From a virus, in IMG/VR virus record IMGVR_UViG_3300017706_000639, positions 1-27,270 of that record: a stretch of 27,270 nucleotides of DNA; one strand, given 5' to 3'. The notes beneath the pieces are model-generated. The model made no database searches. It had not been told where the DNA came from and saw only the letters and a list, made by a program, of their open reading frames with translations. Position 1 is the first letter of the stretch, and each line of letters starts with the position of its first letter. Below are positions 3,001-26,139 of this stretch, in pieces. The position numbers were made by a program, and so were the translations under genes.

Positions 3001-4494
3001 ATGAGTTTATCTCCACAATTTGGTAGTATTGTACCTTCGCAAGTTCAACAAACTCTAGCTAATAACTATCTTGTATTTGATGGTGGCGCTGGAGGAAATT
3101 TTGCGCAACAATATTTACCAGAAATTTACGAACAAGAAGTAGAGCGTTATGGAAACAGAACGTTATCTGGCTTCTTAAGAATGGTTGGCGCTGAAATGCC
3201 AATGACAAGTGATCAAGTAATCTGGTCAGAACAAAATAGATTACACATTGCATACGATAGTTGTGGTGTTGAAGCTGGTGGTGGTGCTGGAGCTAATTTA
3301 GCTTCTGTCATCAATATTGGTGGTGGCGCAACTGCTTTGAATGTAATATCTGTAAACGATACTGTAGTTCTTTTAGATCCTGCTAATGGAGTAGAAGCTA
3401 AAGGTATTGTTCAGGCTACAACTCCTGGTGTAGTTGGTGGTGCAAGTGGAACTATTACAGTTCAACCATTTGCTAATCAAACTTTTGATGCTAGCGGTAT
3501 TTCTATTACTGGAGCAGGTGCTTTAGGTAGTATTAAAGTATTTGTATACGGTTCTGCTTACCAAAAAGGAACACAAATGACAGGCGGTACAGTTGCTAAT
3601 GGAGCTGCGTCTAGAGTTTCTGTAGAACCACAATTTACTCAGTTTTCTAACTCACCTATTATATTGAGAGATCAGTACGTTATAAACGGATCTGATATGG
3701 CTCAAATTGGATGGGTAGAAGTTGCAACTGAGGATGGTGCTTCTGGTTTCTTATGGTACTTAAAAGCTGAGTCTGAAACAAGACTACGTTTTGAAGATTA
3801 CCTAGAAATGTCTATGGTAGAAGGTGAGCTAAATGCAAATGCTAACGCTGCTGCAGGAACTGCTGTGGCTTTCTTACCAGGTACTGAAGGTTTATTTGCT
3901 GCTATCAGAAACAGAGGAAATGTAGAAGTAGGATTTACTGCTGCTGCTGGACTAGATGAATTTGATGCAATTCTTAAAAACTTAGATACTCAAGGTGCTA
4001 TTGAAGAAAACATGCTTTTCTTACAGAGACAAACTGCTCTTGATTTTGATGATATGCTAGCAAGCATTTCTGGCGGATTCGCTGGAGGAACTGCTTTTGG
4101 TTTATTTGAAAACTCAGAAGAAATGGCTCTTAACCTTGGTTTCTCAGGATTTAGAAGAGGTTCTTACGACTTTTACAAAACTGATTGGAAATACTTAAAT
4201 GACGCTTCAACTAGAGGTGGTATTGTAGGTGTTAATTCAATTGAAGGTGTATTAGTACCTGCTGGAACTTCTACAGTTTACGATCAAGTACTCGGTACAA
4301 ACATCAGACGACCATTCTTACACGTACGTTATAGAGCTTCTCAAGGAGACGACAGACGTATGAAGTCTTGGTTAACTGGTTCTGCTGGTGGTGCATTTAC
4401 TTCAACTCTTGATGCTATGGAAATTAACTTCCTATCAGAAAGATGTTTAGTAACTCAAGCTGCTAACAACTTTGTATTATTTCAAGGATTATAA
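3001..4494 (+). CDS. Major capsid protein
   Basis: Main shell subunit, HK97-fold expected. Of 497 residues, the N-terminal ~75 carry LPEIYEQEVERYGNRTLSGF and EMPMTSDQVIWSEQNRLHIAY, an N-arm and P-domain-like opening. Residues ~90-205 are a Gly/Ala/Thr/Val-rich beta region that looks like an inserted domain. Residues ~205-270 include SNSPIILRDQYVINGSDMAQ and ETRLRFEDYLEMSMVEGE, a stretch of the kind seen in podovirus and crAss-like capsid proteins. The C-terminal part (EINFLSERCLVTQAANNFVLF) reads as the closing strands. Codon use is more regular than in the flanking genes, as expected for a highly expressed protein. The gene starts 16 bp after the scaffold stop and is followed by a strong terminator, which would shield downstream genes from its high transcription. 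Order and composition make this call fairly secure. Confidence 0.85.
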   Translation: MSLSPQFGSIVPSQVQQTLANNYLVFDGGAGGNFAQQYLPEIYEQEVERYGNRTLSGFLRMVGAEMPMTSDQVIWSEQNRLHIAYDSCGVEAGGGAGANLASVINIGGGATALNVISVNDTVVLLDPANGVEAKGIVQATTPGVVGGASGTITVQPFANQTFDASGISITGAGALGSIKVFVYGSAYQKGTQMTGGTVANGAASRVSVEPQFTQFSNSPIILRDQYVINGSDMAQIGWVEVATEDGASGFLWYLKAESETRLRFEDYLEMSMVEGELNANANAAAGTAVAFLPGTEGLFAAIRNRGNVEVGFTAAAGLDEFDAILKNLDTQGAIEENMLFLQRQTALDFDDMLASISGGFAGGTAFGLFENSEEMALNLGFSGFRRGSYDFYKTDWKYLNDASTRGGIVGVNSIEGVLVPAGTSTVYDQVLGTNIRRPFLHVRYRASQGDDRRMKSWLTGSAGGAFTSTLDAMEINFLSERCLVTQAANNFVLFQGL

Positions 4495-7478: not shown

Positions 7479-10400
7479 ATGGCTAAAGTTCAAAATACTT
7501 TTTTAAAGTCCAAGATGAATAAAGACTTGGACGCTCGTATATTGCCAGAGGGTGAGTACAGAGACGCTAGAAACGCACAAATAAGTAAGTCTGAAAGTTC
7601 TCAAGTTGGAAACTTAGAAAACACTTTAGGTAATAGGTCTATACAAAATTACCAAACATTAACTCAAAGCACAAATATAAAATGTATAGGACATTTTTCA
7701 GATGAAATAAATTCTACAGTTTATTTGTTTTTTACTGATTACGTTGATCCTTTTCCAAACAGATTTATATATAATCCTTCAGCTAAAAACTTTATAATAT
7801 CTACAAATGTTTTAACTAATCAGTCTAGTATATTAGTTCAAGGCGCTTTTTTAAACTTCTCTCAAACAAATATTATAACTGGAGTTAACATACTAGAAGA
7901 TCTATTATTTTTTACTGACGATAGAAATCAACCTAGAGTAATAAATACTTTATTAGCAAACCCAGATCCTACTAATATATTTCCTACTTATTATTTAACT
8001 GAAGATCAAATATCAGTAGCTAAATACAATCCATACAGTTGTATGGAAATGTTTCAAAAAAGCATTTTAGATCCAGGTGAATATGAAACTACTATGAAAG
8101 ATGTTAGTAGTAAATTTTTACCTAACGGAGGTCAAGCTACAACTACCAGTAATCAAACAGGCGCTAGTATAAATGTAACTCTTAATATTGTAGGTCAAGT
8201 TAATACATCGACGTCTCCTTGGGGATCCGCAAGTGTTTCACTATTTGATTCATTTGATAACACTATAATACCTACTGGAGCAACAGTAAATAGCATTACT
8301 TTAAACACTACAACAACACCAAACAGTTACGATATTGCATTAAGCACTAGCATAACAACCACTACAACAAGAAACACATTAGTGTTTGAACCAAACCCGT
8401 ATTTTAACGGAGCTTTTGGTGGAGATCCAGATTACTTAGAAAGTATATTTCCAAGGTTTAGCTATAGATTTAAGTTTACGGATAATACATATTCTATATT
8501 TGCACCTTTTACGCAAATAGCTTTTATACCAAAGCAAGATGGTTATTTTATGTTTGCTGAAAGTCCTGATCAAGAAAAAGACGATCAAAACGAAGCTTAT
8601 AGAAGTACAATAGTTTATTTTGTAGAAAACAAAGTAAACAATATTGGTTTAAGAATACCATTACCTTTTAATAACTATACTCTATCAAATGCTTTAAAAA
8701 TAGAAGAGATAGATATACTGTATAAAGAATCTGATGGTATTGCTGTTAGAGTTGTAGAGACTATACCAATAGGCAGAATTCAAAGTCAATCAGGCGTTTG
8801 TTTGACCAATGGTGCTCAAACACCAGGAACTTCGGGTAATAATATAGCGATAGATGGTCTTCAAGGCGGTATAACAATAGGTGATCCAATAACAGGTCCA
8901 GGTATTGATGATGGAACTACAATTTTAAGTTTTACACCTACAGATCCTAGCAACGCTGTATCTGGAAACATAACTGTAAGCTCAACTGTTCCTATATTAG
9001 ATGACAATGTTTTATTAACAATAGGTAGTCCAAACTTTTTTGTTTATGATTACACATCTACAAAACCTACAAAAACTTTACCTGAATCTAATTTAGTTAG
9101 AGTTTTTGATAAAATACCAGTAAGAGCTAAGGCTCAAGAAGTCACTGGTAATAGGGTTATATATGGTAATTTTTTAAATAAAATTGATCCACCTGCTTTT
9201 TTAAACTACAACGTAGCTTCTACTATTAAACCTCAATTTACAATAAACGAAGTAACTGCAGCTTATGCCGGTGCGGCGGCAACGTATACAGCTTTTACAG
9301 ATACTATAGCTATAAATGTATCAAAATCAACTTTACCTTGGTACGTTGGATATGTTATAACATCTAATACATACGGAGTTATAATTCCTCCAGGCACGCA
9401 AATAGCTAGTACAGATAGCAACACTACAGGTGCAGCTAATATAACATTAACTGAAACAGTTACTTTTCCAGCAGGCACACCTGTAAACGTTGTTTTAATA
9501 ATGGAACCTGGGGCTGATACAGAAAACTCAGAGTCTATTATAGAATACCCAAATCATTCTGTTAAAACAAATAGAAATTATCAAATTGGTTTTGTGCTTT
9601 CAGATAGATACGGAAGACAATCAAGCGTTATACTGTCTAATAATGAAACTAAAATAAAAGTTTCTGGAGTAGAATATTCAGGCTCTACTTTATTTTCTCC
9701 ATATATAGATGAAAGTATAAATAAAACTGCTTGGCCAGGTAATTCTTTGAAAGTTTTAATGAACGAACCTATTAATGAAAATTTATATAATGGAGATGTA
9801 ACAAGTGCAGATTATAATCCTTTAGGTTGGTATTCATATAAAATAGTTGTAAAGCAAACAGAACAGGAATATTACAATGTTTATCTTCCTGGTATTATGG
9901 CCTCTTATCCTGAGGATCGAACGCTTGAAATTGGTCAAACATCTCATATTGTTTTAATAAATGATAATATAAATAAAATTCCAAGAGATTTAACAGAGGT
10001 TGGTCCTGATCAAAAACAGTTTAGAAGTTCTGTTCAACTATTTGGTAGAGTTCAAAATATAACAACAGGCTCTATACCTGTTTCTGGAAACACTAACACA
10101 CAGTATTACCCAGGAACTAATTCAGATACTGTTTCAATAATTTCTACTGTTAATGATTTATTTGATTACGATCCTATAAACCCAAATCAACCAAATTATT
10201 TTCCTCAGTTTTATTCTTTAGATTCAAATCCTTTAATAGCTAGGATATCGACAGAAGCTCAAATAGGACAAATAGCAACAACTGGTCAAACATATAACTA
10301 CATACCAGCTGCTGGTACCGTAGTAAATCCTCCTAACACTGCTGGTTCGAATCCTGGTACACCTGTAACTCCACTAACACCAGCGAATAAAATACTTATA

Positions 10401-12857
10401 ACAAACGTAGCTAGCCAAATAGCTATTACAGCAAATAGTCTTGTAAATTACTTAGTAACAGGTCAAGGTGTACCAGCTGGAACGTACGTAGGCGCTAACG
10501 ACGCGCCAATTGCAGATGGCAGTGTAAATAATATAACTCTAGTTGACAGTGCTAATAATTCTGTTTTTGTAAATTTAACAGATGGAATAGAAGTAACTTT
10601 TACGCCGGCGTCAGCTACAACAGATTTATTAACGCCAGGTATTCAGTATTTAGCTGTTTATGAAACAGAAGCTGTAGAGAGTGCTATTGATATATTCTGG
10701 GAATCATCTTCAACTGGTTTAATAGGTGATCTTAACGCGGCTATACTAAACAATCAAGATCAACCTGCTGGGTCAAATATAACTTGGAACCCAAGTGATT
10801 TCACTGAAGGTTTAGCCGCAGGAGGTAACATATTAAATGGTAACGGATTTAACATAGTAGATAATTTTGGGCAAACAATAACTATAGATCCATCAACTGA
10901 CACTGTAGAATTTGGAGCGCCTAACGATTTACCTTCAATAACAGATGGTGCCGGAAATGATTGTAATGGATCTCCTTCTACAAGCACGCCTCAAGTTAGA
11001 GATTATTTTAGACTAGTACCAGGATCAAATACAGGTCCTTGGCAAGTTAGAACAACGTCTCAAGCAGATGGTTTAGCAGAAGATGTAAATTATTTTGATA
11101 ATATTTTTTACATGTATGATCAAAATGAAGCTCTAAGACAGTTTAATTTTAATTTTAAAATAACAGTAGGTGGTCAAGTTAATTACGTAACAAATCTTCA
11201 AGCTAATCTCCAAAATGTAGCACCTGAATATTTCAAAATAATAGCTAAAAATACTGTTAATGCTGGTGATATAACGTATGGTCCAGGTGGAAATCTTCCA
11301 CTTCAAGAATTTATACCTGTAAGAACTAGAAAAAATACTGAAGATATTGCAATTATAAACTTTAGTAATGGTTCCGCTAACAAAGATAATACTTTAAGTA
11401 ATGGAGCTTTATCTGTTAAAGATCTAGAAATGATTAATTCTTTTGGTGAAGATTTTAGCGTTTATGATCAAAGAATAGGTAGTCCAAATGGACAACCAGC
11501 TGAGGTATTATTTATGGGTAATACAGAACCTATATTTACTATTCAAGAAGAATCTAGTAATGAAGCAGGAACCTTGCAGGCGAAACTAATAAATCAATTT
11601 GCAGGATCAAATCAAGCAAACGTGCCTGCCGCTCTTTATTACGTAACATTACTTATACAAGATGGTCAAACTACTGTTGAACAAAAGTTTGAAATTGATA
11701 TGAGACTAGAGCTCACCAACGATAACTTTTTAAATAAATTTCAGAGATCTAAAGACTTAGGGCCAGGAAATACTCAAAATCAACAATCAGGCTTTGTTTA
11801 TCCAGCTTATGATACGTTTACTAGATATGCAGCTTGTGGAACCAATGATTTTTACGCCGGCAGTGCATTTGATTCATTAGATTGGAAATCTTATAATATG
11901 ACATTAATAAATCTACCCGCAGGAACACCGGGCGTAGGAAATGATGAAATTGGTTATTATATATATGCTCTTGGGTTCTTTAAAAACCACGATCCAGTTT
12001 TAATCGGAGGTTGTCAACAAGAATATTCTCCTAGCGTAGACTTGGTTACTTACTCTCAAGGTGCTAATGAAGTTTTTAACAACACTATAACAATTCCATT
12101 TAATACTCCAAATTTATGGGGTCATAAGGTTCAAAAACAAAAATCTTTTGTAACAAATGAAAACTGGCAGCTACCACCTTATTGTCATGGTAAAGGAAAA
12201 GTAGTTGGAGTACAGGTTGCTATTGATGGTATTACATATGATTATGAAATAGAACCAGTTGGATCAGAAACAGCTCAAAGTGACATAAGTGCATGCATGT
12301 TGTTTTTTAAAAATGACTGGAATGATGGAAGCGCGAACGCTGGGGAGCGTGTTAGGCAGGGAAGACAGGCTAATACAGTAAATACCGGAGATGCTTCTAA
12401 TAGAATTGCAGCAGCTGTTAATTTAAATAATGGAAACGTAGCTATCAATTTTGAAAACCAAAATATTTCTTTACAATTAAATGATCACATATATACATAT
12501 GGCGGTCCTTTTAATGAGTTTACAACTCCTTGGTTTTTTTCCCCAGGCATAAGCTCTGATTCTGTAATGAAAGTGTGGGCTATGTGGATATACAGCGAAT
12601 GGTTTCCACCGTATTGGGAGAATTCAGATAGAAATTTTTCAAGATGGTCTCCAGCTTGGGAGCCGTATACTAGTACTAATACCCCAGGTGAACCTGTGCC
12701 TAATTCACCTTTAGTTGTAGCTGGGTTTTCCCAAGCAAACTGGATGGCATCGGTGAATCCTAGTTCTACAGCCGAAGGCTGCCCAACAGCTCCTATATAT
12801 GTTAATCAAAACTATGAGGTTACAGAGGCTAACGACTATCTTTATTCAATACAGTAA
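7479..12857 (+). CDS. Giant tail-hub / tail stabilisation protein, 1792 aa
   Basis: Likely forms the tail nozzle (T7 gp12 / P22 gp10 / crAss muzzle-type role). The N-terminus is diagnostic in style: FLKSKMNKDLDARILPEGEY and RDARNAQISKSESSQVGNLE resemble the opening of tail stabilisation proteins. The body is beta-rich with many Asn/Thr/Pro/Gly residues, as expected for propeller and Ig-like domains. At least three small Gly/Thr-rich beta modules are inserted (residues 438-515, 595-674, 969-1041), and a related Thr-rich stretch may lie at 225-305. The C-terminal ~300 residues are Trp/Tyr-rich (NDWNDGSANAGERVRQGRQ; VMKVWAMWIYSEWFPPYWEN) and contain several Cys. No transmembrane segment or hydrolase motif is seen. 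It is well over twice the ~800 aa of T7 gp12, probably through such insertions. Neighbours on both sides are tail proteins. Confidence 0.66.
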   Translation: MAKVQNTFLKSKMNKDLDARILPEGEYRDARNAQISKSESSQVGNLENTLGNRSIQNYQTLTQSTNIKCIGHFSDEINSTVYLFFTDYVDPFPNRFIYNPSAKNFIISTNVLTNQSSILVQGAFLNFSQTNIITGVNILEDLLFFTDDRNQPRVINTLLANPDPTNIFPTYYLTEDQISVAKYNPYSCMEMFQKSILDPGEYETTMKDVSSKFLPNGGQATTTSNQTGASINVTLNIVGQVNTSTSPWGSASVSLFDSFDNTIIPTGATVNSITLNTTTTPNSYDIALSTSITTTTTRNTLVFEPNPYFNGAFGGDPDYLESIFPRFSYRFKFTDNTYSIFAPFTQIAFIPKQDGYFMFAESPDQEKDDQNEAYRSTIVYFVENKVNNIGLRIPLPFNNYTLSNALKIEEIDILYKESDGIAVRVVETIPIGRIQSQSGVCLTNGAQTPGTSGNNIAIDGLQGGITIGDPITGPGIDDGTTILSFTPTDPSNAVSGNITVSSTVPILDDNVLLTIGSPNFFVYDYTSTKPTKTLPESNLVRVFDKIPVRAKAQEVTGNRVIYGNFLNKIDPPAFLNYNVASTIKPQFTINEVTAAYAGAAATYTAFTDTIAINVSKSTLPWYVGYVITSNTYGVIIPPGTQIASTDSNTTGAANITLTETVTFPAGTPVNVVLIMEPGADTENSESIIEYPNHSVKTNRNYQIGFVLSDRYGRQSSVILSNNETKIKVSGVEYSGSTLFSPYIDESINKTAWPGNSLKVLMNEPINENLYNGDVTSADYNPLGWYSYKIVVKQTEQEYYNVYLPGIMASYPEDRTLEIGQTSHIVLINDNINKIPRDLTEVGPDQKQFRSSVQLFGRVQNITTGSIPVSGNTNTQYYPGTNSDTVSIISTVNDLFDYDPINPNQPNYFPQFYSLDSNPLIARISTEAQIGQIATTGQTYNYIPAAGTVVNPPNTAGSNPGTPVTPLTPANKILITNVASQIAITANSLVNYLVTGQGVPAGTYVGANDAPIADGSVNNITLVDSANNSVFVNLTDGIEVTFTPASATTDLLTPGIQYLAVYETEAVESAIDIFWESSSTGLIGDLNAAILNNQDQPAGSNITWNPSDFTEGLAAGGNILNGNGFNIVDNFGQTITIDPSTDTVEFGAPNDLPSITDGAGNDCNGSPSTSTPQVRDYFRLVPGSNTGPWQVRTTSQADGLAEDVNYFDNIFYMYDQNEALRQFNFNFKITVGGQVNYVTNLQANLQNVAPEYFKIIAKNTVNAGDITYGPGGNLPLQEFIPVRTRKNTEDIAIINFSNGSANKDNTLSNGALSVKDLEMINSFGEDFSVYDQRIGSPNGQPAEVLFMGNTEPIFTIQEESSNEAGTLQAKLINQFAGSNQANVPAALYYVTLLIQDGQTTVEQKFEIDMRLELTNDNFLNKFQRSKDLGPGNTQNQQSGFVYPAYDTFTRYAACGTNDFYAGSAFDSLDWKSYNMTLINLPAGTPGVGNDEIGYYIYALGFFKNHDPVLIGGCQQEYSPSVDLVTYSQGANEVFNNTITIPFNTPNLWGHKVQKQKSFVTNENWQLPPYCHGKGKVVGVQVAIDGITYDYEIEPVGSETAQSDISACMLFFKNDWNDGSANAGERVRQGRQANTVNTGDASNRIAAAVNLNNGNVAINFENQNISLQLNDHIYTYGGPFNEFTTPWFFSPGISSDSVMKVWAMWIYSEWFPPYWENSDRNFSRWSPAWEPYTSTNTPGEPVPNSPLVVAGFSQANWMASVNPSSTAEGCPTAPIYVNQNYEVTEANDYLYSIQ
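8790..9023 (+). repeat. Beta module copy A in the 1792-aa tail protein
   Basis: Residues 438-515. Hydrophobic strand, then GDPITGPGIDDGTTILSF, a loop, then NITVSSTVPILDDNVLLTI. It shares the pattern G-x-x-(I/V)-x-G-x-G-(I/V)-x-x-G-(T/A)-x-(I/V) ... (I/V)-T-(V/L/I) with copies B-E. The copies are protein-level repeats, not near-identical DNA. Confidence 0.6.
9261..9500 (+). repeat. Beta module copy B in the 1792-aa tail protein
   Basis: Residues 595-674. TIAINVSKSTLPWYVGYVI is followed by GVIIPPGTQIASTDSNTTG and ANITLTETVTFPAGTPVNVV. The core PPGTQIASTD and the NITL strand match the shared pattern. This copy has a longer first loop than D or E. Confidence 0.55.
10383..10601 (+). repeat. Beta module copy C in the 1792-aa tail protein
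   Basis: Residues 969-1041. Contains NYLVTGQGVPAGTYVGAND and VNNITLVDSANNSVFVNLTD, ending GIEVTF. The TG-x-GVPAG core is the same as in copy D of the neighbouring gene, which is the clearest sign that the modules are homologous. Confidence 0.65.
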
Positions 12858-12886
12858 TTTAAATATAAAACAAGTAATAATTAATT

Positions 12887-14833
12887 ATGGCAGGTGCAGT
12901 AATAGAAGTAAAATACTTTAATACCTTTTTGCTTAAAAAAGTAAATGACTCAGCAGACAAAGTAGTTTGGAATGGTTCTAGAGGTATTCCAAAAGATATT
13001 GGAGGTTATCCTGCTATAAGTGGATTAAACAGAGATGACACTTGGGCTATTGAAGAATCAAGAATTAGAGGTGGGTATAATAACACCTCGGTTGATTTTG
13101 GAGCAAAAGCTTATTTAGTTGAAGACGAACCTAACGGCACAAGAAGGTTTAATACTTTAATATACTCTGGAATATTTAATTCAAGAACAGGTATAAACAA
13201 TACAAATGTTTTTTCTGTAGCAGATGATATAACTAAATCAGCTGATCCAGCTAATGGTTCAATACAAAAACTATACGCGGAAGATACTAATTTAACTATA
13301 TTTCAAGAGTTGAAGTGCTCAAGGGCCTTAATAGATAAAGACGCTATATATTCCGCAGAAGGTGGTGGCGCTGTAACAGCTAGTAACTTAGTTATCGGTG
13401 TTATTCAACCGATACCTGGAAAATATGGTATATCTAAAAACCCAGAAAGTTTTGCTGTTTATGGTAATAGAAAATATTTTTCTGATGAAAACAATAACGT
13501 AATACTTAGACTTGCTGGTGGTATAGAAGAAATATCTTCTAACGGCATGAAAGACTTTTTTAGAGATGAAATAAATAAAATAAATTCAGCTGGAGCACTA
13601 GGTAATATAATTGGAGCTTATGATATATACGGAAGCGAATATGTTATATCCTTACAAACACCTTCTTCTTTAAGAACTGTTTCTTTTGATCCAAATCAGA
13701 CTAACAACCCTGATTTATTCAAAACTTTAAACTTTGACGAAAGATCTCAAGGTTGGGTTAGCTTTTTCGACTATAAGCCAGATCAAATGTTTAGTTTAAG
13801 AAATAATTTTTATTCTGTTAAATCTACACCAGGACGTGGGACTGTTGCTAGTAGCGCAACCGGTTTTACTTTTATTTTAAACAACGTAAGTGGATTTATA
13901 CAACAATATTCTACTGTAACAGGCACTGGTGTTCCCGCTGGAGCTACAGTAACTGGTTTTGATTCTACAACAAACAATGTAACCATAAACACTGGGGCTA
14001 CATTGTCGGCTGGAACAATACTTAGATTTGGTAGTGTACCACAATTGTGGAGACATTATGACAGTAGTGTTAATAGAAGTAATTTTTATGGCGTAAACTA
14101 CCCAAGTACTATTACTTTTATTTTTAATCCAAACGCGACTAATTCTAAAAGTTTTAAAACAATAGGTTATGAAGGAAGCAATGGTTGGCAAGTTGATAGT
14201 TTTTCTTCCGATAGCACAGGCGCTAGATTAACAGCAGCTGGCGCGGGTTATAATTCTTCTGAAGATACTACTAGTAGAAATATTACTGGTCTTGGTGAAA
14301 TAACTACAGTAAGTTACAACGACGGAGAATATATTTTAACCGAAGGTCAAGGTTCTGTTGCTTTAGCTACTACAACTACAAACGTAGTTTTACAATTAAA
14401 TACTGTTACTGGATATATAAACGCTGGTGATATTGTTACTGGATCTTCTTTGCAATCTCAAAGAACTGTAGTTTCTTACAACAGCAATACAGGGGTTTTA
14501 GTCTTAAATCTATTGACTACTTTAAACGTTGGAGACGTTTTGTATTTTAACGGTGTAGCCTATAGAAGTAATTACTTATCTGTATTTGGCACCTTAAACC
14601 CTCCATTTCCAAAACACTATTCAGGTTTTAATTTAAAAGAGAATAAATACGTTGCTAATTTACTTAACTTTTCTAGTCCTAATAATAAAGAAGTTTTATA
14701 TGGTCAATCTATTAGCGGTGTAAAAGGCTTTTATGCAACAGTAAAAATGTCTACAGATTTAACTACTGATTTTGGAGGTGAGAAAACATTATTTTCTGTT
14801 GAGAGTACATACGATATGAATAACGGATATTAA
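12887..14833 (+). CDS. Second tail-hub protein, 648 aa, beta-rich
   Basis: Probably a partner of the preceding tail-hub protein. Residues 1-320 carry ordered beta-strand-like blocks with Gly/Tyr turns (KDIGGYPAISGLNRDDTWAI; YGISKNPESFAVYGNRKYFS; NVILRLAGGIEEISSNGMKD; FDERSQGWVSFFDYKPDQMF), reminiscent of a propeller as in P22 gp10-type proteins. Two small beta modules of the type found in the 1792-aa protein interrupt the C-terminal half (residues 324-381 and 495-556). The segment between them (VPQLWRHYDSSVNRSNFYGV, FKTIGYEGSNGWQVDSF) and the end (GVKGFYATVKMSTD) look like continuation of the main fold. No enzyme motif, no membrane helix. The gene starts 29 bp after the previous stop, so it may be a split-off part of a single ancestral tail gene (inference). 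Confidence 0.6.
   Translation: MAGAVIEVKYFNTFLLKKVNDSADKVVWNGSRGIPKDIGGYPAISGLNRDDTWAIEESRIRGGYNNTSVDFGAKAYLVEDEPNGTRRFNTLIYSGIFNSRTGINNTNVFSVADDITKSADPANGSIQKLYAEDTNLTIFQELKCSRALIDKDAIYSAEGGGAVTASNLVIGVIQPIPGKYGISKNPESFAVYGNRKYFSDENNNVILRLAGGIEEISSNGMKDFFRDEINKINSAGALGNIIGAYDIYGSEYVISLQTPSSLRTVSFDPNQTNNPDLFKTLNFDERSQGWVSFFDYKPDQMFSLRNNFYSVKSTPGRGTVASSATGFTFILNNVSGFIQQYSTVTGTGVPAGATVTGFDSTTNNVTINTGATLSAGTILRFGSVPQLWRHYDSSVNRSNFYGVNYPSTITFIFNPNATNSKSFKTIGYEGSNGWQVDSFSSDSTGARLTAAGAGYNSSEDTTSRNITGLGEITTVSYNDGEYILTEGQGSVALATTTTNVVLQLNTVTGYINAGDIVTGSSLQSQRTVVSYNSNTGVLVLNLLTTLNVGDVLYFNGVAYRSNYLSVFGTLNPPFPKHYSGFNLKENKYVANLLNFSSPNNKEVLYGQSISGVKGFYATVKMSTDLTTDFGGEKTLFSVESTYDMNNGY
13856..14029 (+). repeat. 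Beta module copy D in the 648-aa tail protein
   Basis: Residues 324-381, the most compact copy: TFILNNVSGFIQQYSTVTGT, GVPAGATVTGFDSTTNNVTI, then GATLSAGTILRFG. The TGTGVPAGATV core parallels TGQGVPAGTYV of copy C in the upstream gene. Confidence 0.65.
14369..14554 (+). repeat. Beta module copy E in the 648-aa tail protein
   Basis: Residues 495-556. VVLQLNTVTGYINAGDIVTG is followed by RTVVSYNSNTGVLVLN and LNVGDVLYFNG. Spacing of strands and the closing G-(D/T)-(V/I)-L-x-F match copy D, but the PAGT turn has diverged. Confidence 0.58.
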
Positions 14834-17157: not shown

Positions 17158-20100
17158 ATGACAGTAGGTGAATATGCTAGATCTTTAGTTGATCAAAATT
17201 ACTCTCAGACAGAAATGTACGATATGGTTTTAGCTTTTAAAGCTAAACAAAAAAAAGAGAAGAAAACTGAAGTTGTAGCCGAGCAAGTAAAGAACACCGA
17301 CTCCACGCCGCAGGATCCGAACGTAGAGTCAGAAAACAATACAGGATCCGAATCGGAAAGTGGACAATCACAGCCTCAAGAGCTTGAGGTAATTACTGAT
17401 AAGAAACAAGCTTTAAATGCTAAGCCTGGTCAAGTTTATAGTGATCATGGTTATGAATATAAATACGAGGTAGGCGAAGATGGTAAAGGCGAGTATTATA
17501 CTAAAAAACCAGATGACAATGACTGGATTAAAGCTAAAGGCGTAGCTGAAGCTTCAATTGCTAGCCAATTTGGTCATAGTGATTTTGATAAAGAAAGTTA
17601 TTTTAAAGCTAAATATGCTAGACAAGAGAGAGAGGAAGCTCTAAAATTAGCTAATGCTAAACAACTAGAGGAAGCTAAAAAGCTACAAGAACAAATAGAT
17701 AAACAAGCGCCTTTAGTTAATGAAGTTGAGTCAGAGGTTGCCTACGTAAACACTGTAGATAAGTGGAAGCAAAGAGAGGATATAAAAGCAGACAAAAACA
17801 AAACAAGAAGAAACACTTCTACTGAAGATGAGTTAAAAAGAGGTATAATTAGAGGAGAAGACGTATTAGGTGATGGAACTCTAGACTTAGACGATTTTAA
17901 TGGAGACGAAAAGCAGTTTGAAGATTACAAAAAATACAAAGATATTACAAACAGATTAGCTGTTAATAAAAATTACAAAGGACAATGGGGATCGGGTAGA
18001 AAACGAATAACACGAAAAAACGGTGAATCTATTGAAGAATTAAAAGCTAGACTTAAAAAAGAAGGTAGAGATCCAGTTAAAGGTAAATCATCGGTAGGTG
18101 AATATATAGTGGCTGATATGCCTGGTAAGTTATCCAAAGAAGAGTGGACCAAGCTTAATGAAGAAAGAAAAAAATTAGAAACTTCTTTTGACGAAGGTAA
18201 ATTTGATCTAGCCGAGGAAGCTTGGTATGTGAAAGCCTACGATGCGTTTATGGGTAATCCAGAAGATAGAATCCAAAAGGTAAAAGCAGTTGATTTAGTT
18301 CCTACCGTAGAAGCTGTTACTGCTTTTGACAAAAAATATATACAGCCCCAAGAAGATGGCGACAACACTGAAGGTATTAATTTTGCAGAGATAACTGATG
18401 AAGCTTTGCTTGCAACAAAATTAGATCAAGCAATTCAAAATGAAGTTACAGCTGATCCTTTGGTTAGAAAACTACAATTAGAAGCTGAGGTTAGAATAAA
18501 ACCTGTTATGGCTAAACACCAAGAAGAGCTTTATAAGAAACACGACACTGACACTCCAGAAGGAGTGGCTGCTTTTAATAAAGAAAGTGAAGAAATATAC
18601 TCACAGCTCATGAGCGAAGATTTATCTTCTAATGACGATTATTCAAATAGAGTAAAACAAATAGCTGCTGTAGGAAATAAAGCTTTTCAAACAGCTAATA
18701 ACGCTTTTAATAGAGACAATAGCTGGTTAGGCTATTTAGATGATGCTCAAGAAGCAGTAGATGGTCTTGGTCCAGTTGAATTTTGGACTGACTTAGTAAC
18801 TGATTCAGCTGAAGGTTTTGCAAAAGGTAGTAGAAGTATTGGCACGGGTATTGATAAAATGCAAGCTAGTTATGATGTAGCAAGAGCCAAACAGGCTAAA
18901 GACAAGTTAACAGATTTAGATAATCTACAAAAATCAGGTGCGCTAAAAGGAGATTCAGAAATATTATATTACGGTAAAAAAATGACCGTTGATGAAGCTC
19001 GTAAGGAGCTAAAGCTAGAAGAAAAAGACTGGACTAAGGCTTTAGAAAGTAATTTAGATGAAATAAAATTATCTGATGAAATCTTACAAAAATACCAAAC
19101 AGCTGATCTTTCAGATGGTGATATAAGCTGGAAAGATATTGTTTTAACAACTTCTGAAGCCTTGCCTCAAATAGGTTTGGCTACAGCGGGTGCAGCCGCG
19201 GGAGTTGCTACTGGTGGAGCAGCTATAGCTCCTTTATTAGGTGCTCTTGGTACAGTTACCATGGGAGTAACAATGTATGGTGATGCGTATATGGATGCTG
19301 CGGAAACTGGAGCACAAGAAGACTACGATGCAATTAATGGAGCTGGATCATACAATCAATTAGAAGATAAAGAAAGAACAGAGTTTTTAATAACTGGTCT
19401 TAAAAGTGGTAGATACCACGAGCCTGGTAAAGCCGCTTTAGTAGCCGCTGTTCAAACTGGTATGGAAAAAATTGGTGCTGGTAAGATTTTAGCTAAAACT
19501 CAAAAAGCTTTAGGTGTAGGTAAAAATGGTTTAGCTTCTATAATAGCAGGTGACTTAAAATCAAGTTTAAAAAATATAGGAGCTGGAGTTTTAAGTAAAC
19601 TAGAAGCTGGAGGTACAGAGTTTATAACAGAGTGGGGTCAAGAAATAGTAGGTGGCATAGGTAAAGGCATGATGGTTAAAGGATCTGGAAGCCAAGGAGC
19701 TATGAGATATGTTGACATGGGCGCTGCTTACGAAGCTGGTAAAGCTGGTGGAATTGTAGGTATTGCTATACCATTTGGTGGTAGCATTGCAAAACAAAGT
19801 AGCATAGAGGTTAGAAACATAGCTAGAAATGTAGCTATAAACTTTGCACCGAGTAGTAATTTTGGTAAATCTGCAAAAGCAAACGCTGAGTTTTTTAAAA
19901 ATGCTCAAAATCAATTAGATAAACGATTAAAATCTGGTAAAAACCCAGACGGAACAACCTACACTAAAGAACAGCATCAAGAAGATTCTATAAACTTAGC
20001 TAATATTAAAAATGCTGGTGACAAAATACCTTCCGCTGTTACTGATCCTCAGACTAGAGGTAAAATGTTAGATCTTTTAGTTAAAAGAGATAATCTAGAA

Positions 20101-23100
20101 AGAAAAATAAAAGACATAGATGATAGCGATCTTACGGCTGAAGAAGACGCAGAGTTGCAAGAAACGAAACAAGAGCTAAGAGAAATAATGAAGCAAGAGG
20201 CTTTATTTTCTACCAACAATAACGTGAGAGCTGCTATAGAAAAATCCGGTAAAGGTAATATTGAATTTCAAGACTTTAGTAATGCTAAAGAAATGAACGA
20301 CTATGCTAAGCAAAAAAAGATTAATGGGTGGCAAGAAAAAAACTCAGCTAATCACGGTGTAGTTTTATATGATTCTAAAACAGGTAAAGAGCAAATACTT
20401 ATTAATAATGAGCTATCACTAAAAGACTCTAATGTAAATGTAGGAGCTCATGAGTTTTTACATACAGTATTAAGAAACACGGTTCAAAATAGTAAAGGAA
20501 CAGCTATTGCTTTAGGTAAAAGCTTACAGACTTATATTGAAGGAATAGATAGCACTCAGATTGATAGTAATTCTGATTACGGTAAAAGATTAGCTGCTTA
20601 CAAAAACGATCCAGCTAACATAAAAGGTGAAGAAGCTATAACGTTGTTTAGTGATGGTATTGCTAATGGCTCTATAAAGTTTAATGAAGGTGTTTTTACT
20701 AAAATAGGTGATGCTATACGTAGAACATTGCAAGCTGCAGGTATTAAAAACGTTAAATTTAATACAGGTAGAGATGTTTATAATTTTGTTAAAGACTACA
20801 ATAAAAGCATTGAAAAAGGTAAAGGGTTAAATAAAGCTCAGCAAGCATTATTAGAAGGTAGAGCAGAAGGAGACCTTGTTAAAAGAGAATACAAAAGTAA
20901 ACCTAAAACAGATAGCTCTGTAGATATGGGGCTAGAAACAGAGGTTGATCTAGGTGTTGTTAAGTCTTCTAAGCCTACAGTTTTAGAAGCAATAAATGAA
21001 ACTGTACCTCAAGATATATCTACAAAAGCAGATTATGACGCTATGCTTAGAGATCCTAAAAAAGGTTCTACAGTGTTAAACTCTGTTATAAATGAAGGTG
21101 GAGCTATTAATAATTATATTAGAAGTAGATCTACAAGTAAAGCTGAAGCTGAAAAAGCTATAGAAGGTGTAACAGATAGAATATTAAACTTTAATCCTGA
21201 AGCACTAAGAGCTGATGGTAAAAAAGTTGGCATGGAAGGATTTGGTGAAGCTATATTTGCTAATACTAGATTCGCTAAAATGGATGCTAAAAAAGCTTTA
21301 GCAAAAGAATCAGAAAAAGCTAAACAAGAACAAAGCACAGATAGTGATATTGTTAGAGAAATAGCTAACGCACCTACAAGCTCTACGTCTACAGAGAAAC
21401 AAACAGCAAAAGCTCAATCACCTAGAGCAACAAATCAATTTACACCTTCTTTTTCTCAAGGACTACAAGTTGAAACAGAAGGTAAAACTACCGCTGAAGT
21501 AAATGAAGAAATAAACCAACAGTTTGATAAAGCTATTGATTCTGATTTACAAGCATTAGGAGAGGTTACTAGCTTTGGCCAGACTAAAAACATAGGACCT
21601 GCTGTAGCCGCGTTGATGGAGAAAGCAACAGGGATGCCTGCTAAAGTTTTTACAGATAAAAGCAAAAACATAGCAAAGAAAGACGCTACATCTGGAGCTT
21701 TAACAAACGTAAAACAATATCTTAATAAAAACGCTCAAAGAGATTTTAAAAATCTTCCTGACGCATTTGCTAAAGATAGTGGTAAAGCTACATTTATACC
21801 TGAAAACGTTAAAAAAGCTTTATACAAAAAAAATGATAAAGGTCAATTTGTTTTAGATAAAAGTAAAACTTTAAAAGATTATAAAGAATTACTTGGTGAT
21901 ATGGAAAAACCTGTTTATAGAGCCGCTGAAGCTCAAACTATAAAAGGTTTAGTTGCGCTTTCTCTTAGAAACATGATATTCGAAAAAGCTGTTCCAAGCT
22001 CAACCGCAAGAGCAACAACAGGCGTTAAGTTTAGTAAGCAAATACCTGTAGATACTGACAAAGGTAAAACTCAACTTAAAGATATAGGTGTTGCTAGAGA
22101 CATGAATAAAGTTGCTGAGATTTCTGGAATTGGTAAAATTGGCATTACTCCTGAAAACATAGCAGAAAAAAGAGCTCAAATGACTAGCTCTATAGTAGAT
22201 CAAAATATATCAAGCATAGCTTTTAACAATGGAAAATTTGCTAACTTTGGTAGATCATATAAAGTTAGAGATGGTATAAAATATTTTAAGCTAACAAACG
22301 GTAAAGAAGTTAAAAATGGTAGTAAAGAGTATAAACAAGCTGTAAAAGACGAAACGTTTATGCCCGCAAAAGGCAGCTTGTATTACTCAGTAAAGCAGAA
22401 AGCATATATAGCAGATCAAGAACTAGCCGCGGCTAACGATGCTATGTATCCTAATTTACCAAAAGCACAAAGAGTTAATGTAAAAGATGCTGGAACCAAA
22501 AAAGCAAACGCACAGTCTAAAGCTAATTTAGATATACTAGAAGCTGTTGCTACTCAATTAGAAACAGCAGTAGCTAACGGTATGCCTATAGAAATAGCTT
22601 CTTTGTTTATAACTTCTAGTTATCAAGCTACTACAGGTTTAATAAAAATATCAGCTCCTTTTTCTGCAGAGTCAGATAAAATGGAATATGCCGAGGTTGG
22701 TAAATCAAATCAAGTTGGAGGTAAAGAGGCTTTTAGAGAAGAGCATAGTCCACCGGCTTCTGTTGTTGGTGGTAGTTTAATTTGGGCTATTAAAAACGGT
22801 CAAGTTAAACAAGTAATGCAAGGAATAAGAGATAACTATATACAAGTAAAGTTATCTAAAAAAGACGATGTAAAATTAGATAATGCTAAGTTAGATTCTA
22901 CTTTACCAGACGGCGTTAGTATCATGACACCAAACGCTGGAATAAGAAGATTTGCAGCAGCGGGTGTAAATCTGAATACTATAACAGATTATAAATCAGG
23001 TAAGAGTTTTGCTGATATAATGGGTGTTGGTGTTGATTTAAAAGCTAGTAAAAGAAATCCTAATATAATATATGCTCAAAACGCTTTAATAAATGAGCAA

Positions 23101-26100
23101 ATAAAAGGTGACTTAGAAGTTGACGTTACTATGGATAAAGCTGCTATTAAGAAGTTTGATCCGCATGGTATGATAGAAGTAGTTTCTAATAGACTGTTTG
23201 GTGAAGCTAATTACTTTAAGCTAAATGACACTCAAAAAGCAGCAGTTCAAAAAGAAATGATTACTAAAAACATAGCTAAGCTGACGCAGGCTAGAATAAA
23301 AGCTTACGAACCAATTGCTTCTTTAGAATTAAAAGCTAGTAAAATAAATACTAAAACATACAACAATAAAGTAAGTCCTGAAATGACAATAGCTGAACAG
23401 CTTACAATTTTAGGTAATTACGATACTGCAGCTAGAAAAGCTAGATCTTTAGACACGCCTAAAAAAGGCATTAGTGTATTTGATTTTGATGATACGTTAG
23501 CTAGAACTAAAGAAAAAGTTATAGTAAACAAACCGGGCGAGGTTTCAGTAGAAATATCTGCGGCAAAATTTGCAGAAACAGCTAGTCAACTAGAATCAGA
23601 AGGAGCTACATTTGACTTTAGCAACTTTGAAGGAGTTGCAAATGGAACCAAAAAAGGTCCTTTGGCAGACTTGGCTTTACGTAGACAAGAAAAATTTGGT
23701 AACAAAGATATATTTGTTTTAACTGCTAGACCTCAAGTATCAGACAAAGCTATTAAAACTTTTCTAGATGGCATCGGTTTAAACTTACCTATAGGAAACA
23801 TAACAGGATTAGGAAATGGAACACCTGGCGCTAAGGGTAATTGGGTTGCTCAAAAAGCCGCTGAAGGTTATAATGATTTTTATTTCGCAGATGACGCTTA
23901 TAAAAACGTAGAAGCCGTACAAGAGGTTTTAAGTCAAGTAGATGTTGATTCAGAAGTACAAATAGCTAAGTTTAGTAAAGTTAAAACTTTTGATAAAATA
24001 TTTAATGATATAATAGAGAGTTCTACTGGCATTGAAACATTTAAAGAGTACTCTAAAGCAAAAGGCCAAATGACAGGTAAGAAAAAAGGTAGATTTAGCT
24101 TTCTTACAAGTCCTTCAGCTGAAGATTTTTTAGGTTTACTATATAAGACATTAGGCAAAGGAAAAATAGGTGATGCTCAATTAGATTTCTATAAGAAAAA
24201 CTTAATCGATACATACGACAGAGCAGAGCTAGCGGTAACAAAAGCTAAAATACAAGCTGCTAATGATTTCAAAGCTTTAAAAAAGAATTTAAAAACACTA
24301 CCTAAAAGTTTATCAAAAGAAATGGGTTACGGTGGTTTTACTTTTTCGCAAGCAGCTAGAGTTGCAGCATGGACAAGACAAGGTTTAAACGTGCCTGGTT
24401 TATCTAAAACCGACTTAAAAGCTCTTAATAGCTTTATAGATAATAATGCTGAAATGAATACTTTTGTTGATGAGCTTATTAAAATACAAAAAGGTAAACC
24501 GTATCCTGCACCAAGCAAAGATTGGTTAGGTGGAACTATTACTAGTGACATATTAAATGATATAAACAAAGTAAATAGAAAACAATACCTACAAGAGTGG
24601 CAAGAAAATGTAGACATTATATTTTCTGAAAAGAATATGAACAAGCTTGAAGCGGCCTATGGTCCTAAGTACGTAGAAGCTCTGCGTGATACTTTGCGTA
24701 GAATGAAGAGCGGTTCTAATAGACCTATTGGCGGATCTAGAGTTGTTAATCAATTACTAGACTGGCTTAATAATTCAGTTGGTGCTATTATGTTCTTAAA
24801 TACTAGATCAGCTGTCTTACAGACTCTTTCTGCAGTTAACTTTATAGGTGTAGGAAATAACGGTATTATAAATTCAGCTAAAGCTTTTGCTAACCAAAAA
24901 CAATATTGGTCAGATTTTAAAACGCTAATGAACTCTCCTTATTTGACGGAAAGACGTAATGGTTTAAAAATAAATGTAAGTGAATCTGAAATAGCTGATG
25001 CTGTTGCTGAAAGCTCAAACAAACCCAAAGCGGCTTTAAGTTTTCTTCTTAACAAAGGATTTGTACTTACTAGATTTGCAGATAGTTTTGCTATAGCAAC
25101 TGGTGGTGCCGCTTTTTATAGAAACCAATTAAACATGTATGTTGAGCAAGGTATGCCAATGGACATGGCTCAAAAGAAAGCTTTTCAAGATTTTTATACC
25201 ATAGCAGAAAAAAACCAGCAATCAAGTAATCCAAGTAAAATATCACAGCAGCAGGCTTCAGGTGCTGGACGTGTTGTATTAGCGTTTGCTAACACACCAA
25301 TGCAGTATGCTCGTATAATAAAAAGATCTTCTCAAGATTTATTAAACGGCAGAGGTGATTGGAAGAAGCATGTTGGTACTATAGCTTTTTACGGTGTTGC
25401 ACAAAACCTTATATTTAGTGCTTTACAAAACGCTTTATTTTCTGAGGCTTTTGGTGAAGATGAAGAAGAAGATGAACAACAAGAAGACAAAGCTGGTAGA
25501 ATAGCAAATGGTATGGCTGATTCATTATTGTCAGGTTTAGGTATACAAGGTAAAGCTGTTTTATCTTTAAAAAATGCTTTAATAACTTTAGCTAAAGAAA
25601 ACGATAAAAAATCACCTAAGTTTGTAAAAGCTGTTTATGATTTATTTGACTTTTCACCTCCATTAGATTCTAAATTTAGAAAACTAAGATCAGCAGCTAA
25701 TACTTTTACTTGGGAAAGAAAAACTATGAAAGAAAAAGGTTTTAGCTTAGATAACCCTGCTTACCTAGCTGGTGCTCAAGTTGTATCAGGTTTAACAAAC
25801 TTACCTCTCGATAGAGCTATATCTAAGTTAAACAATATTAGAGGTATAATGAGTGAGCAGTCTGAAAAATGGCAAAAAGTAGCATTAGCTTTGGGTTGGT
25901 CAACTTGGGATGTTGGCTTAGGTTACTATGGTGGATTTGATCCAGTTAAACCGCTAACTGAGCAAGAGCAATATGAAGTTGATGTCACAACAATGAAAAA
26001 AGATACATCAACTAAACAGCAAAAACAAATGCTATTAGATTTAGGTTTAACAAAAGCTGAAATTAAAAAACTTCGCTATGAAGAAGATAGAGTTAAAAAA

Positions 26101-26139
26101 ATAATTGCATTACAAAAAAAGAAAAATGATAAAAAATAA
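17158..26139 (+). CDS. Giant polyvalent virion protein (2993 aa) with zincin-like and HAD-like domains
   Basis: Probably packaged and ejected, in the position of T7 gp16 or the giant internal proteins of marine podophages. Residues 1-35 are a short helical head; ~35-85 a polar, disordered linker; ~85-640 charged helical segments. Residues ~664-715 and ~858-880 are Ala/Gly-rich and membrane-compatible (LPQIGLATAGAAAG; GIVGIAIPFGGSIA). An HExxH motif lies at 1098-1102. A HAD-like domain spans ~2100-2270, with D2109, D2111, T2189 and D2245/D2246. The C-terminal ~450 residues contain hydrophobic helices (VGAIMFLNTRSAVLQTLSAV; AFYGVAQNLIFSALQNALF), an acidic run near 2766-2780, and a Lys-rich end. 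No lysozyme/SLT signature and no RNA polymerase DxDGD motif is visible. The start at 17158 follows TTAATTCAA, 5 bp after the previous stop. Confidence 0.72.
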   Translation: MTVGEYARSLVDQNYSQTEMYDMVLAFKAKQKKEKKTEVVAEQVKNTDSTPQDPNVESENNTGSESESGQSQPQELEVITDKKQALNAKPGQVYSDHGYEYKYEVGEDGKGEYYTKKPDDNDWIKAKGVAEASIASQFGHSDFDKESYFKAKYARQEREEALKLANAKQLEEAKKLQEQIDKQAPLVNEVESEVAYVNTVDKWKQREDIKADKNKTRRNTSTEDELKRGIIRGEDVLGDGTLDLDDFNGDEKQFEDYKKYKDITNRLAVNKNYKGQWGSGRKRITRKNGESIEELKARLKKEGRDPVKGKSSVGEYIVADMPGKLSKEEWTKLNEERKKLETSFDEGKFDLAEEAWYVKAYDAFMGNPEDRIQKVKAVDLVPTVEAVTAFDKKYIQPQEDGDNTEGINFAEITDEALLATKLDQAIQNEVTADPLVRKLQLEAEVRIKPVMAKHQEELYKKHDTDTPEGVAAFNKESEEIYSQLMSEDLSSNDDYSNRVKQIAAVGNKAFQTANNAFNRDNSWLGYLDDAQEAVDGLGPVEFWTDLVTDSAEGFAKGSRSIGTGIDKMQASYDVARAKQAKDKLTDLDNLQKSGALKGDSEILYYGKKMTVDEARKELKLEEKDWTKALESNLDEIKLSDEILQKYQTADLSDGDISWKDIVLTTSEALPQIGLATAGAAAGVATGGAAIAPLLGALGTVTMGVTMYGDAYMDAAETGAQEDYDAINGAGSYNQLEDKERTEFLITGLKSGRYHEPGKAALVAAVQTGMEKIGAGKILAKTQKALGVGKNGLASIIAGDLKSSLKNIGAGVLSKLEAGGTEFITEWGQEIVGGIGKGMMVKGSGSQGAMRYVDMGAAYEAGKAGGIVGIAIPFGGSIAKQSSIEVRNIARNVAINFAPSSNFGKSAKANAEFFKNAQNQLDKRLKSGKNPDGTTYTKEQHQEDSINLANIKNAGDKIPSAVTDPQTRGKMLDLLVKRDNLERKIKDIDDSDLTAEEDAELQETKQELREIMKQEALFSTNNNVRAAIEKSGKGNIEFQDFSNAKEMNDYAKQKKINGWQEKNSANHGVVLYDSKTGKEQILINNELSLKDSNVNVGAHEFLHTVLRNTVQNSKGTAIALGKSLQTYIEGIDSTQIDSNSDYGKRLAAYKNDPANIKGEEAITLFSDGIANGSIKFNEGVFTKIGDAIRRTLQAAGIKNVKFNTGRDVYNFVKDYNKSIEKGKGLNKAQQALLEGRAEGDLVKREYKSKPKTDSSVDMGLETEVDLGVVKSSKPTVLEAINETVPQDISTKADYDAMLRDPKKGSTVLNSVINEGGAINNYIRSRSTSKAEAEKAIEGVTDRILNFNPEALRADGKKVGMEGFGEAIFANTRFAKMDAKKALAKESEKAKQEQSTDSDIVREIANAPTSSTSTEKQTAKAQSPRATNQFTPSFSQGLQVETEGKTTAEVNEEINQQFDKAIDSDLQALGEVTSFGQTKNIGPAVAALMEKATGMPAKVFTDKSKNIAKKDATSGALTNVKQYLNKNAQRDFKNLPDAFAKDSGKATFIPENVKKALYKKNDKGQFVLDKSKTLKDYKELLGDMEKPVYRAAEAQTIKGLVALSLRNMIFEKAVPSSTARATTGVKFSKQIPVDTDKGKTQLKDIGVARDMNKVAEISGIGKIGITPENIAEKRAQMTSSIVDQNISSIAFNNGKFANFGRSYKVRDGIKYFKLTNGKEVKNGSKEYKQAVKDETFMPAKGSLYYSVKQKAYIADQELAAANDAMYPNLPKAQRVNVKDAGTKKANAQSKANLDILEAVATQLETAVANGMPIEIASLFITSSYQATTGLIKISAPFSAESDKMEYAEVGKSNQVGGKEAFREEHSPPASVVGGSLIWAIKNGQVKQVMQGIRDNYIQVKLSKKDDVKLDNAKLDSTLPDGVSIMTPNAGIRRFAAAGVNLNTITDYKSGKSFADIMGVGVDLKASKRNPNIIYAQNALINEQIKGDLEVDVTMDKAAIKKFDPHGMIEVVSNRLFGEANYFKLNDTQKAAVQKEMITKNIAKLTQARIKAYEPIASLELKASKINTKTYNNKVSPEMTIAEQLTILGNYDTAARKARSLDTPKKGISVFDFDDTLARTKEKVIVNKPGEVSVEISAAKFAETASQLESEGATFDFSNFEGVANGTKKGPLADLALRRQEKFGNKDIFVLTARPQVSDKAIKTFLDGIGLNLPIGNITGLGNGTPGAKGNWVAQKAAEGYNDFYFADDAYKNVEAVQEVLSQVDVDSEVQIAKFSKVKTFDKIFNDIIESSTGIETFKEYSKAKGQMTGKKKGRFSFLTSPSAEDFLGLLYKTLGKGKIGDAQLDFYKKNLIDTYDRAELAVTKAKIQAANDFKALKKNLKTLPKSLSKEMGYGGFTFSQAARVAAWTRQGLNVPGLSKTDLKALNSFIDNNAEMNTFVDELIKIQKGKPYPAPSKDWLGGTITSDILNDINKVNRKQYLQEWQENVDIIFSEKNMNKLEAAYGPKYVEALRDTLRRMKSGSNRPIGGSRVVNQLLDWLNNSVGAIMFLNTRSAVLQTLSAVNFIGVGNNGIINSAKAFANQKQYWSDFKTLMNSPYLTERRNGLKINVSESEIADAVAESSNKPKAALSFLLNKGFVLTRFADSFAIATGGAAFYRNQLNMYVEQGMPMDMAQKKAFQDFYTIAEKNQQSSNPSKISQQQASGAGRVVLAFANTPMQYARIIKRSSQDLLNGRGDWKKHVGTIAFYGVAQNLIFSALQNALFSEAFGEDEEEDEQQEDKAGRIANGMADSLLSGLGIQGKAVLSLKNALITLAKENDKKSPKFVKAVYDLFDFSPPLDSKFRKLRSAANTFTWERKTMKEKGFSLDNPAYLAGAQVVSGLTNLPLDRAISKLNNIRGIMSEQSEKWQKVALALGWSTWDVGLGYYGGFDPVKPLTEQEQYEVDVTTMKKDTSTKQQKQMLLDLGLTKAEIKKLRYEEDRVKKIIALQKKKNDKK
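19147..19310 (+). other. Ala/Gly-rich membrane-compatible segment of the giant protein
   Basis: Residues ~664-717: TTSEALPQIGLATAGAAAGV, GGAAIAPLLGALGTVTMGV, then TMYGDAYMDAAETG. Long uncharged stretches of small residues suggest a membrane-inserting or tightly packed helical hairpin. A second weaker segment follows at residues ~858-880. Large ejected phage proteins often carry such segments, thought to help cross the cell envelope (inference). Confidence 0.5.
20440..20640 (+). other. HExxH zincin-like motif region in the giant protein
   Basis: Residues 1095-1102 read VGAHEFLH, placing H1098, E1099 and H1102 in an HExxH helix preceded by a strand ending VNVGA. The pair E1158/E1159 in KGEEAITLFSDGI lies 56 residues downstream in a predicted helix, where gluzincin-type metallopeptidases place the third zinc ligand. 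The order strand, HExxH helix, then EE-x-x-x-x-F helix matches zincin domains found in large polyvalent phage proteins. Activity could be proteolysis of host or virion proteins (inference). Confidence 0.55.
23461..23985 (+). other. HAD phosphatase-like domain in the giant protein
   Basis: Residues ~2102-2275. Motif I is VFDFDDTLA (D2109, D2111, T2113). Motif II is FVLTARP (T2189). Lys candidates for motif III are K2226 and K2233 in GAKGNWVAQKAAEG. Motif IV is FYFADDAYKN (D2245, D2246). All four HAD motifs occur in order with plausible spacing, so the site may be active. HAD enzymes act on phosphate esters of nucleotides, sugars, proteins or nucleic-acid ends; the substrate cannot be inferred here. 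Confidence 0.8.

Follow-up and report, generated by a model that had tools for sequence, protein, structure and literature searches.

Sequence evidence for a small beta-module family inserted, exchanged, and nested in loops of a two-gene crAss-like phage muzzle

INTRODUCTION

The closest described counterparts of the locus analyzed here are the tail muzzle of phicrAss001, gp44 (PDB 7QOK, 7QOL; PMC10172136), and gp97 of Cellulophaga phage phi38:1. In gp44, both chain ends take part in a single propeller, and the IG1, IG2, and crass domains are insertions (PMC10172136). The authors of that work noted that muzzles vary in length by insertion, and they proposed a cell-contacting role for the distal crass domain and an effect of insertions on surface properties (PMC10172136). 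Small domains with a comparable distribution have also been described: Ig-like and other small beta domains, together with the shuffled domains of receptor-binding proteins, occur in many unrelated virion proteins, are spread by recombination, and are presumed to decorate surfaces (PMC10684548). The BACON repeats of crAssphage are likewise described as repeated small domains in a crAss-like structural gene, with a presumed role in carbohydrate contact (PMC6949934).

How does the present locus compare? The window, by which we mean the whole stretch of DNA analyzed, is a 27,270-base virus record and a fragment. It encodes a muzzle whose N- and C-terminal parts are homologous to gp44 and gp97, carried on two genes instead of the one chain of those proteins. 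Relative to gp44, inserts are also found in the IG1-like region and in the hairpin next to MUZ_C, and some are nested; at the places in phi38:1 that match modules A and D, both modules are absent. Unlike the Ig-like domains (PMC10684548), the module of the window has no Pfam or NCBIfam match and is inserted recursively into its own loop. The BACON domains (PMC6949934) are a separate family in a tandem array, whereas the modules in the window are separate loop insertions with no Pfam BACON match. Domain insertion in phage tails is already known; the unnamed, widespread module family, the recursive nesting at one loop, and the two-gene muzzle each appear to be new.

RESULTS AND DISCUSSION

The window and its genes

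The window virus is a crAss-like phage. Among named phages, it is closest to Cellulophaga phi38:1, Maribacter phage Panino, a spring phage (MW202828), and the elemo phages of Flavobacterium, and judging from these its host would be of the Flavobacteriia type. A nucleotide search of known phages with the window gave no match. The genes run from the portal through a 400-aa gene, a phrog_13704 gene, and three further genes (two of them virion structural by PHROG) to two open reading frames (ORFs) of 1792 aa and 648 aa, P1 and P2. These are followed by a tail-fibre-adhesin-like gene and then by a 2993-aa gene. The place of the muzzle in this order matches that of gp44 in phicrAss001 and of gp97 in phi38:1.

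3001-4494: virion structural protein (phrog_13704), at the position where phicrAss001 has its major head protein
7479..12857, + strand: P1, 1792 aa, split muzzle protein, N-terminal half (hhalign to gp44 and phi38:1 gp97; phrog_14478)
12887..14833, + strand: P2, 648 aa, split muzzle protein, C-terminal half (Pfam crAss_MUZ_C; hhalign to gp44; Foldseek)

The 2993-aa ORF (17158-26139), which lies downstream of the tail genes, had no Pfam or PHROG match. Very long structural genes occupy the corresponding position in phi38:1 and the elemo phages.

P1 and P2 are halves of one muzzle

The first-pass annotation had described P1 and P2 as two adjacent tail proteins. Their homology to gp44 and gp97 revises this: P1 and P2 are the halves of one crAss-like phage tail muzzle, split in a marine clade. 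With a mixed homologue profile in hhalign, P1 matched residues 1-321 of phicrAss001 gp44 (E 8.5e-29), and P2 matched gp44 residues 1029-1293 (hhalign, E 1.2e-30). P2 also contains the Pfam domain crAss_MUZ_C (PF25729; E 6.3e-11), P1 matches phrog_14478 in PHROG, and both ORFs match the single gene product gp97 of phi38:1. Sequence and profile searches of P1 and P2 against the PDB returned nothing significant. The muzzle fold was recovered for P2 only, which shares the fold of gp44: the best PDB match of its AlphaFold model was the phicrAss001 muzzle (7qok_A; Foldseek E 1.4e-9), followed lower in the list by nozzle proteins of the T7-like type from other phages. The P1 model, of moderate confidence (mean pLDDT 69), had no significant Foldseek match in the PDB.

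The two ORFs lie in different frames, ~30 nt apart (window 12855-12887). The muzzle is a single chain in phi38:1, the elemo phages, and phicrAss001, whereas the window and nearly all of ~80 related marine loci (including L023-L027 and L152-L227) carry it as two ORFs. Since the gp44 propeller is threaded through both chain ends, P1 and P2 should jointly complete one propeller. This arrangement suggests that two separate polypeptides can together form a propeller-based gate.

Five stretches belong to one module family on profile evidence

Are the five stretches noticed in these ORFs copies of one small beta module, as the first-pass annotation proposed? Translation of both ORFs bore out its coordinates, frames, and motifs. 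Modules A, B, and C correspond to aa 438-515, 595-674, and 969-1041 of the 1792-aa ORF (7479-12857), and D and E correspond to aa 324-381 and 495-556 of the 648-aa ORF (12887-14833); all are of the beta-strand type and ~55-75 aa long. The insert limits given here were set from relatives and are wider than those first drawn.

8133..8387, + strand: site N, probable divergent sixth copy (site-profile scores 33-41 against the other sites)
8769..9047, + strand: module A (external HMM 3e-5; absent in 17/57 relatives)
9240..9542, + strand: module B (site profiles against A, C, D, and E: E 3.5e-11 to 2.9e-9)
10296..10637, + strand: module C with linkers (external HMM 1e-4; absent in 4/57 relatives)
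13823..14044, + strand: module D (external HMM 5e-8; absent in 62/74; pLDDT ~95)
~14327..14563, + strand: module E (phmmer to D 2.6e-9; absent in 34/74; pLDDT ~95)

Comparison of single sequences with phmmer was secure for D-E only, gave about 1e-3 to 1e-2 for A-D and C-D, and found no match between B and the other copies. The string TG-x-GVPAG is indeed shared by C and D despite their being in different genes; A, B, and E have no exact copy of this central motif. External module sequences were gathered by scanning IMG/VR with a DNA pattern for TGxG(I/V)PAGT, and among the matches listed, most of the in-frame ones lay in long ORFs with the same module around the motif. An HMM was then built from unrelated IMG/VR phages only, leaving out the window's clade. 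Its five best matches in P1 and P2 were D, A, C, E, and B (E values of 5e-8, 3e-5, 1e-4, 0.012, and 3.4). Because the seeds had been chosen by the central motif, C and D were expected to gain some of their score from it. On orthologues, the same HMM reached 2.6e-5 at the E site and 0.0016 at the B site of L026. Within the window, the profile from unrelated phages accordingly matches D, A, and C, and also E with an E value of 0.012; for B, the match depends on orthologues. Reversed and shuffled controls gave at best ~0.9-1.1 with the default composition correction; without this correction, a single reversed ORF came to 0.0013.

When the sites were compared profile against profile, with profiles drawn from up to 74 relatives, all ten pairs were linked (E 1.9e-13 to 2.9e-9; scores 50-73), the closest being D-E. 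As controls, core windows scored no higher than 21, and reversed profiles of other sites no higher than 8.8. Taken together, the external HMM and the ten site-profile pairs confirm, at the level of sequence, that A to E form one homologous module family, which we call the GIPAGT-type beta-module. Could the likeness instead be a product of chance or low complexity among integral strands of the propeller or core? The modules are rich in Thr, Gly, and Val, and reversed self-pairs reach a score of 33 (D), which is inflated by low complexity and points to some composition effect. The reversed, shuffled, and core-window controls rule out such an origin, relatives with the same core lack the stretches, and we consider this explanation very improbable.

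Site N is probably a sixth copy that has diverged in the window. Relatives L212 and L226 have a clear module there (E 1e-9 and 8e-8, respectively), and the external HMM did not detect one in the window sequence itself (E 30).

The modules are insertions in muzzle loops

Relatives number at least 391, and those compared vary between presence and absence of a module at all five sites. Beyond the absences given above, D is present in 12/74 relatives, and the E site holds a single module in 27 of 74 and a double-length insert in 13. B is missing from 2/57 (L007 and L224) and double in 5, and ~19 of the 57 have inserts of 154-180 aa at site C. Module-free relatives have a short turn or loop at the matching position. 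In L024 and L026, which are ~72% identical to the window before site D, the module is missing exactly there. The D position corresponds to gp44 1234/1235, and the A position lies near gp44 262-275, in the IG1 region.

The earlier proposal that the modules were inserted into host folds continuing on both sides agrees with these data, as A, D, or E, and less often B or C, are cleanly missing from those sites in relatives. The insertion reading holds because relatives have the same core without the modules, and this also refutes the alternative that the first-pass annotation had set against itself, namely, integral strands of a core propeller. Presence/absence comparison thus shows the modules to be true insertions in muzzle loops, and their separateness rests mainly on the module-free relatives. 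In AlphaFold models, D and E were predicted confidently as beta units, with pLDDT values of ~93-96 and matching strand order, and N, A, B, and C in the P1 model were mostly at 66-92. Foldseek with P2 also returned a weak likeness to T5 Dit pb9 (E 0.03) that is not assignable to a module.

Modules are exchanged between lineages and nested within one another

On a tree of the P2 core from which the module columns had been removed, D and E each change state at least five times. L154 and L162 share 76% core identity, and their D modules are only 31% identical. The D module of L154 is 54% identical to that of L006 (core, 59%), and the D module of L162 is 69% identical to that of L023 (core, 72%). 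These identities show that lineages have swapped variants of D. Identity between modules at different sites and in different genes is as high as 47-51%, which together with the conflict between D and core identities supports the earlier suggestion of spread by recombination. Between close relatives, the modules are under purifying selection (dN/dS 0.12-0.46), with no hypervariation or positive selection seen. There is thus no sign of fast diversifying selection, which counts against a fast arms-race reading.

Alternatively, the copies could have arisen by duplication in one lineage and been inherited vertically with no exchange between phages. D was found only in E-carrying genomes (12/12), and no two sites are closer than D and E. 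D may thus have begun as a copy of E, although shared ancestry confounds this count; an E-like segment is also visible by eye in phi38:1 and the elemo phages. The D-versus-core conflict between lineages and the occurrence of the family in unrelated phages and proteins are at odds with a history of duplication alone, and we regard it as improbable.

Long inserts at the E site have an internal order. In 11 of 13, the E profile matches three times: the first part of an outer module (to ~56-70), a near-complete inner module, and the last part of the outer module (from ~57-71). The other two, L198 and L208, have no clean nested pattern. The five B-site doubles are nested like those at the E site, and at both sites the outer module is interrupted at the corresponding internal loop, where the V-x-S strand is followed by the I-T-L strand.

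The module occurs in unrelated phages

Module sequences are poorly represented in domain databases. Whole P1 and P2 had no Ig-like or BACON match in Pfam at E 1, four single modules had no Pfam match except a weak one to MlaD (E 0.08), and NCBIfam held no model for the module. No single module was found by tblastn in known phages with the low-complexity filter on, and a literature search for the motif string found no paper. With representative modules, the profiles of PHROG 6005, 5838, 6002, and 10467 were found to contain the module (E down to 1.7e-6). These families, annotated as virion structural or unknown, represent whole proteins of other phages and do not define the module as a family of its own. 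In unrelated phages, the module is present in proteins matching baseplate wedge, head closure, head-tail adaptor, and tail fibre families. The family seems abundant in environmental phages, and routine annotation, with no Pfam or NCBIfam model, is blind to it.

Tentatively, the module could be a general landing-pad domain that inserts in permissive loops of unrelated virion proteins. Its own hairpin loop would then be one landing site, so that it could grow recursively and spread by recombination like a nuclease-free mobile element at the protein level.

A stricter pattern matched 15 contigs of bacterial metagenome-assembled genomes (MAGs), several with ORFs of >2,000 aa in Verrucomicrobia and Bacteroidota. 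Some of the module-bearing MAG contigs could be phage contigs. L229-L243, MAG contigs from Verrucomicrobia, Bacteroidota, and proteobacteria, carry the module motif within very long ORFs, and the module may also be a bacterial surface-protein module.

Possible roles of the modules at the tail tip

What might the modules do? In our preferred reading, to which we give a probability of roughly 0.6, A to E (probably six copies) are one unnamed beta-module family in loops of a two-gene muzzle, gained, lost, exchanged, and nested by recombination around a conserved core, and they sit outside the tail tip, where they alter contact with the host envelope. In this reading, recombination at a few permissive muzzle loops adds, removes, exchanges, and nests modules while the muzzle core stays conserved. 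The modules most likely project outside the tail tip and could alter envelope contact through weak, multivalent adhesion or spacing, leaving the gate untouched. Their position on the outer surface is inferred from the loop sites and from homology to the phicrAss001 muzzle. The host-contact role is likewise conjectural, and it agrees with the cell contact proposed by the phicrAss001 authors. Overall, the first-pass interpretation is supported in part: insertion and recombination agree with the data, and the glycans or fibres that it named are hypothetical ligands.

The main rival is that the modules are structural or near-neutral decoration, acting as spacers, stabilizers, or subunit clamps in exposed loops with no part in host binding. 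Many relatives do without A, D, or E; the module is also found in proteins of head-closure and head-tail adaptor-like type, for which host contact is not required; and purifying selection on the modules would fit as well. That modules have repeatedly been gained, exchanged, and nested at the tail tip in different lineages nevertheless suggests a benefit, although neutral mobility would look similar, and we consider pure decoration rather unlikely. The gain, loss, swapping, and nesting of modules suggest that phages can rapidly remodel the surface with which they meet the host cell. The series of present, absent, exchanged, and nested modules in one conserved protein is a natural experiment in tail-tip remodelling and makes the role of decoration domains directly testable.

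Other arrangements of the muzzle genes

Variation in the muzzle genes was also observed in individual relatives. In L005:4583-9968, a close relative on the same contig as L022 and L153, P1 is broken into overlapping ORFs of 980 and 837 aa. The interruption, either a sequencing error or a real break, lies near residue 955, immediately ahead of module C. The muzzle is split at another place (P2 257/279) in L008:10858-11598 and L017:7634-9000 (minus strand), and in L017 a 183-aa gene annotated as a putative glycosidase sits between the muzzle parts. The window and the two relatives split elsewhere contained no Rfam element at gathering score, and the muzzle splits are thus not accounted for by any known intron family. 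An extra ORF of ~130 aa lies exactly between the muzzle genes at L196:7492-7998, L198:7555-7986, L208:7549-7986, and L213:7537-7995; it carries a GGxxE...DIDxxV motif and by eye resembles a nucleotidyltransferase.
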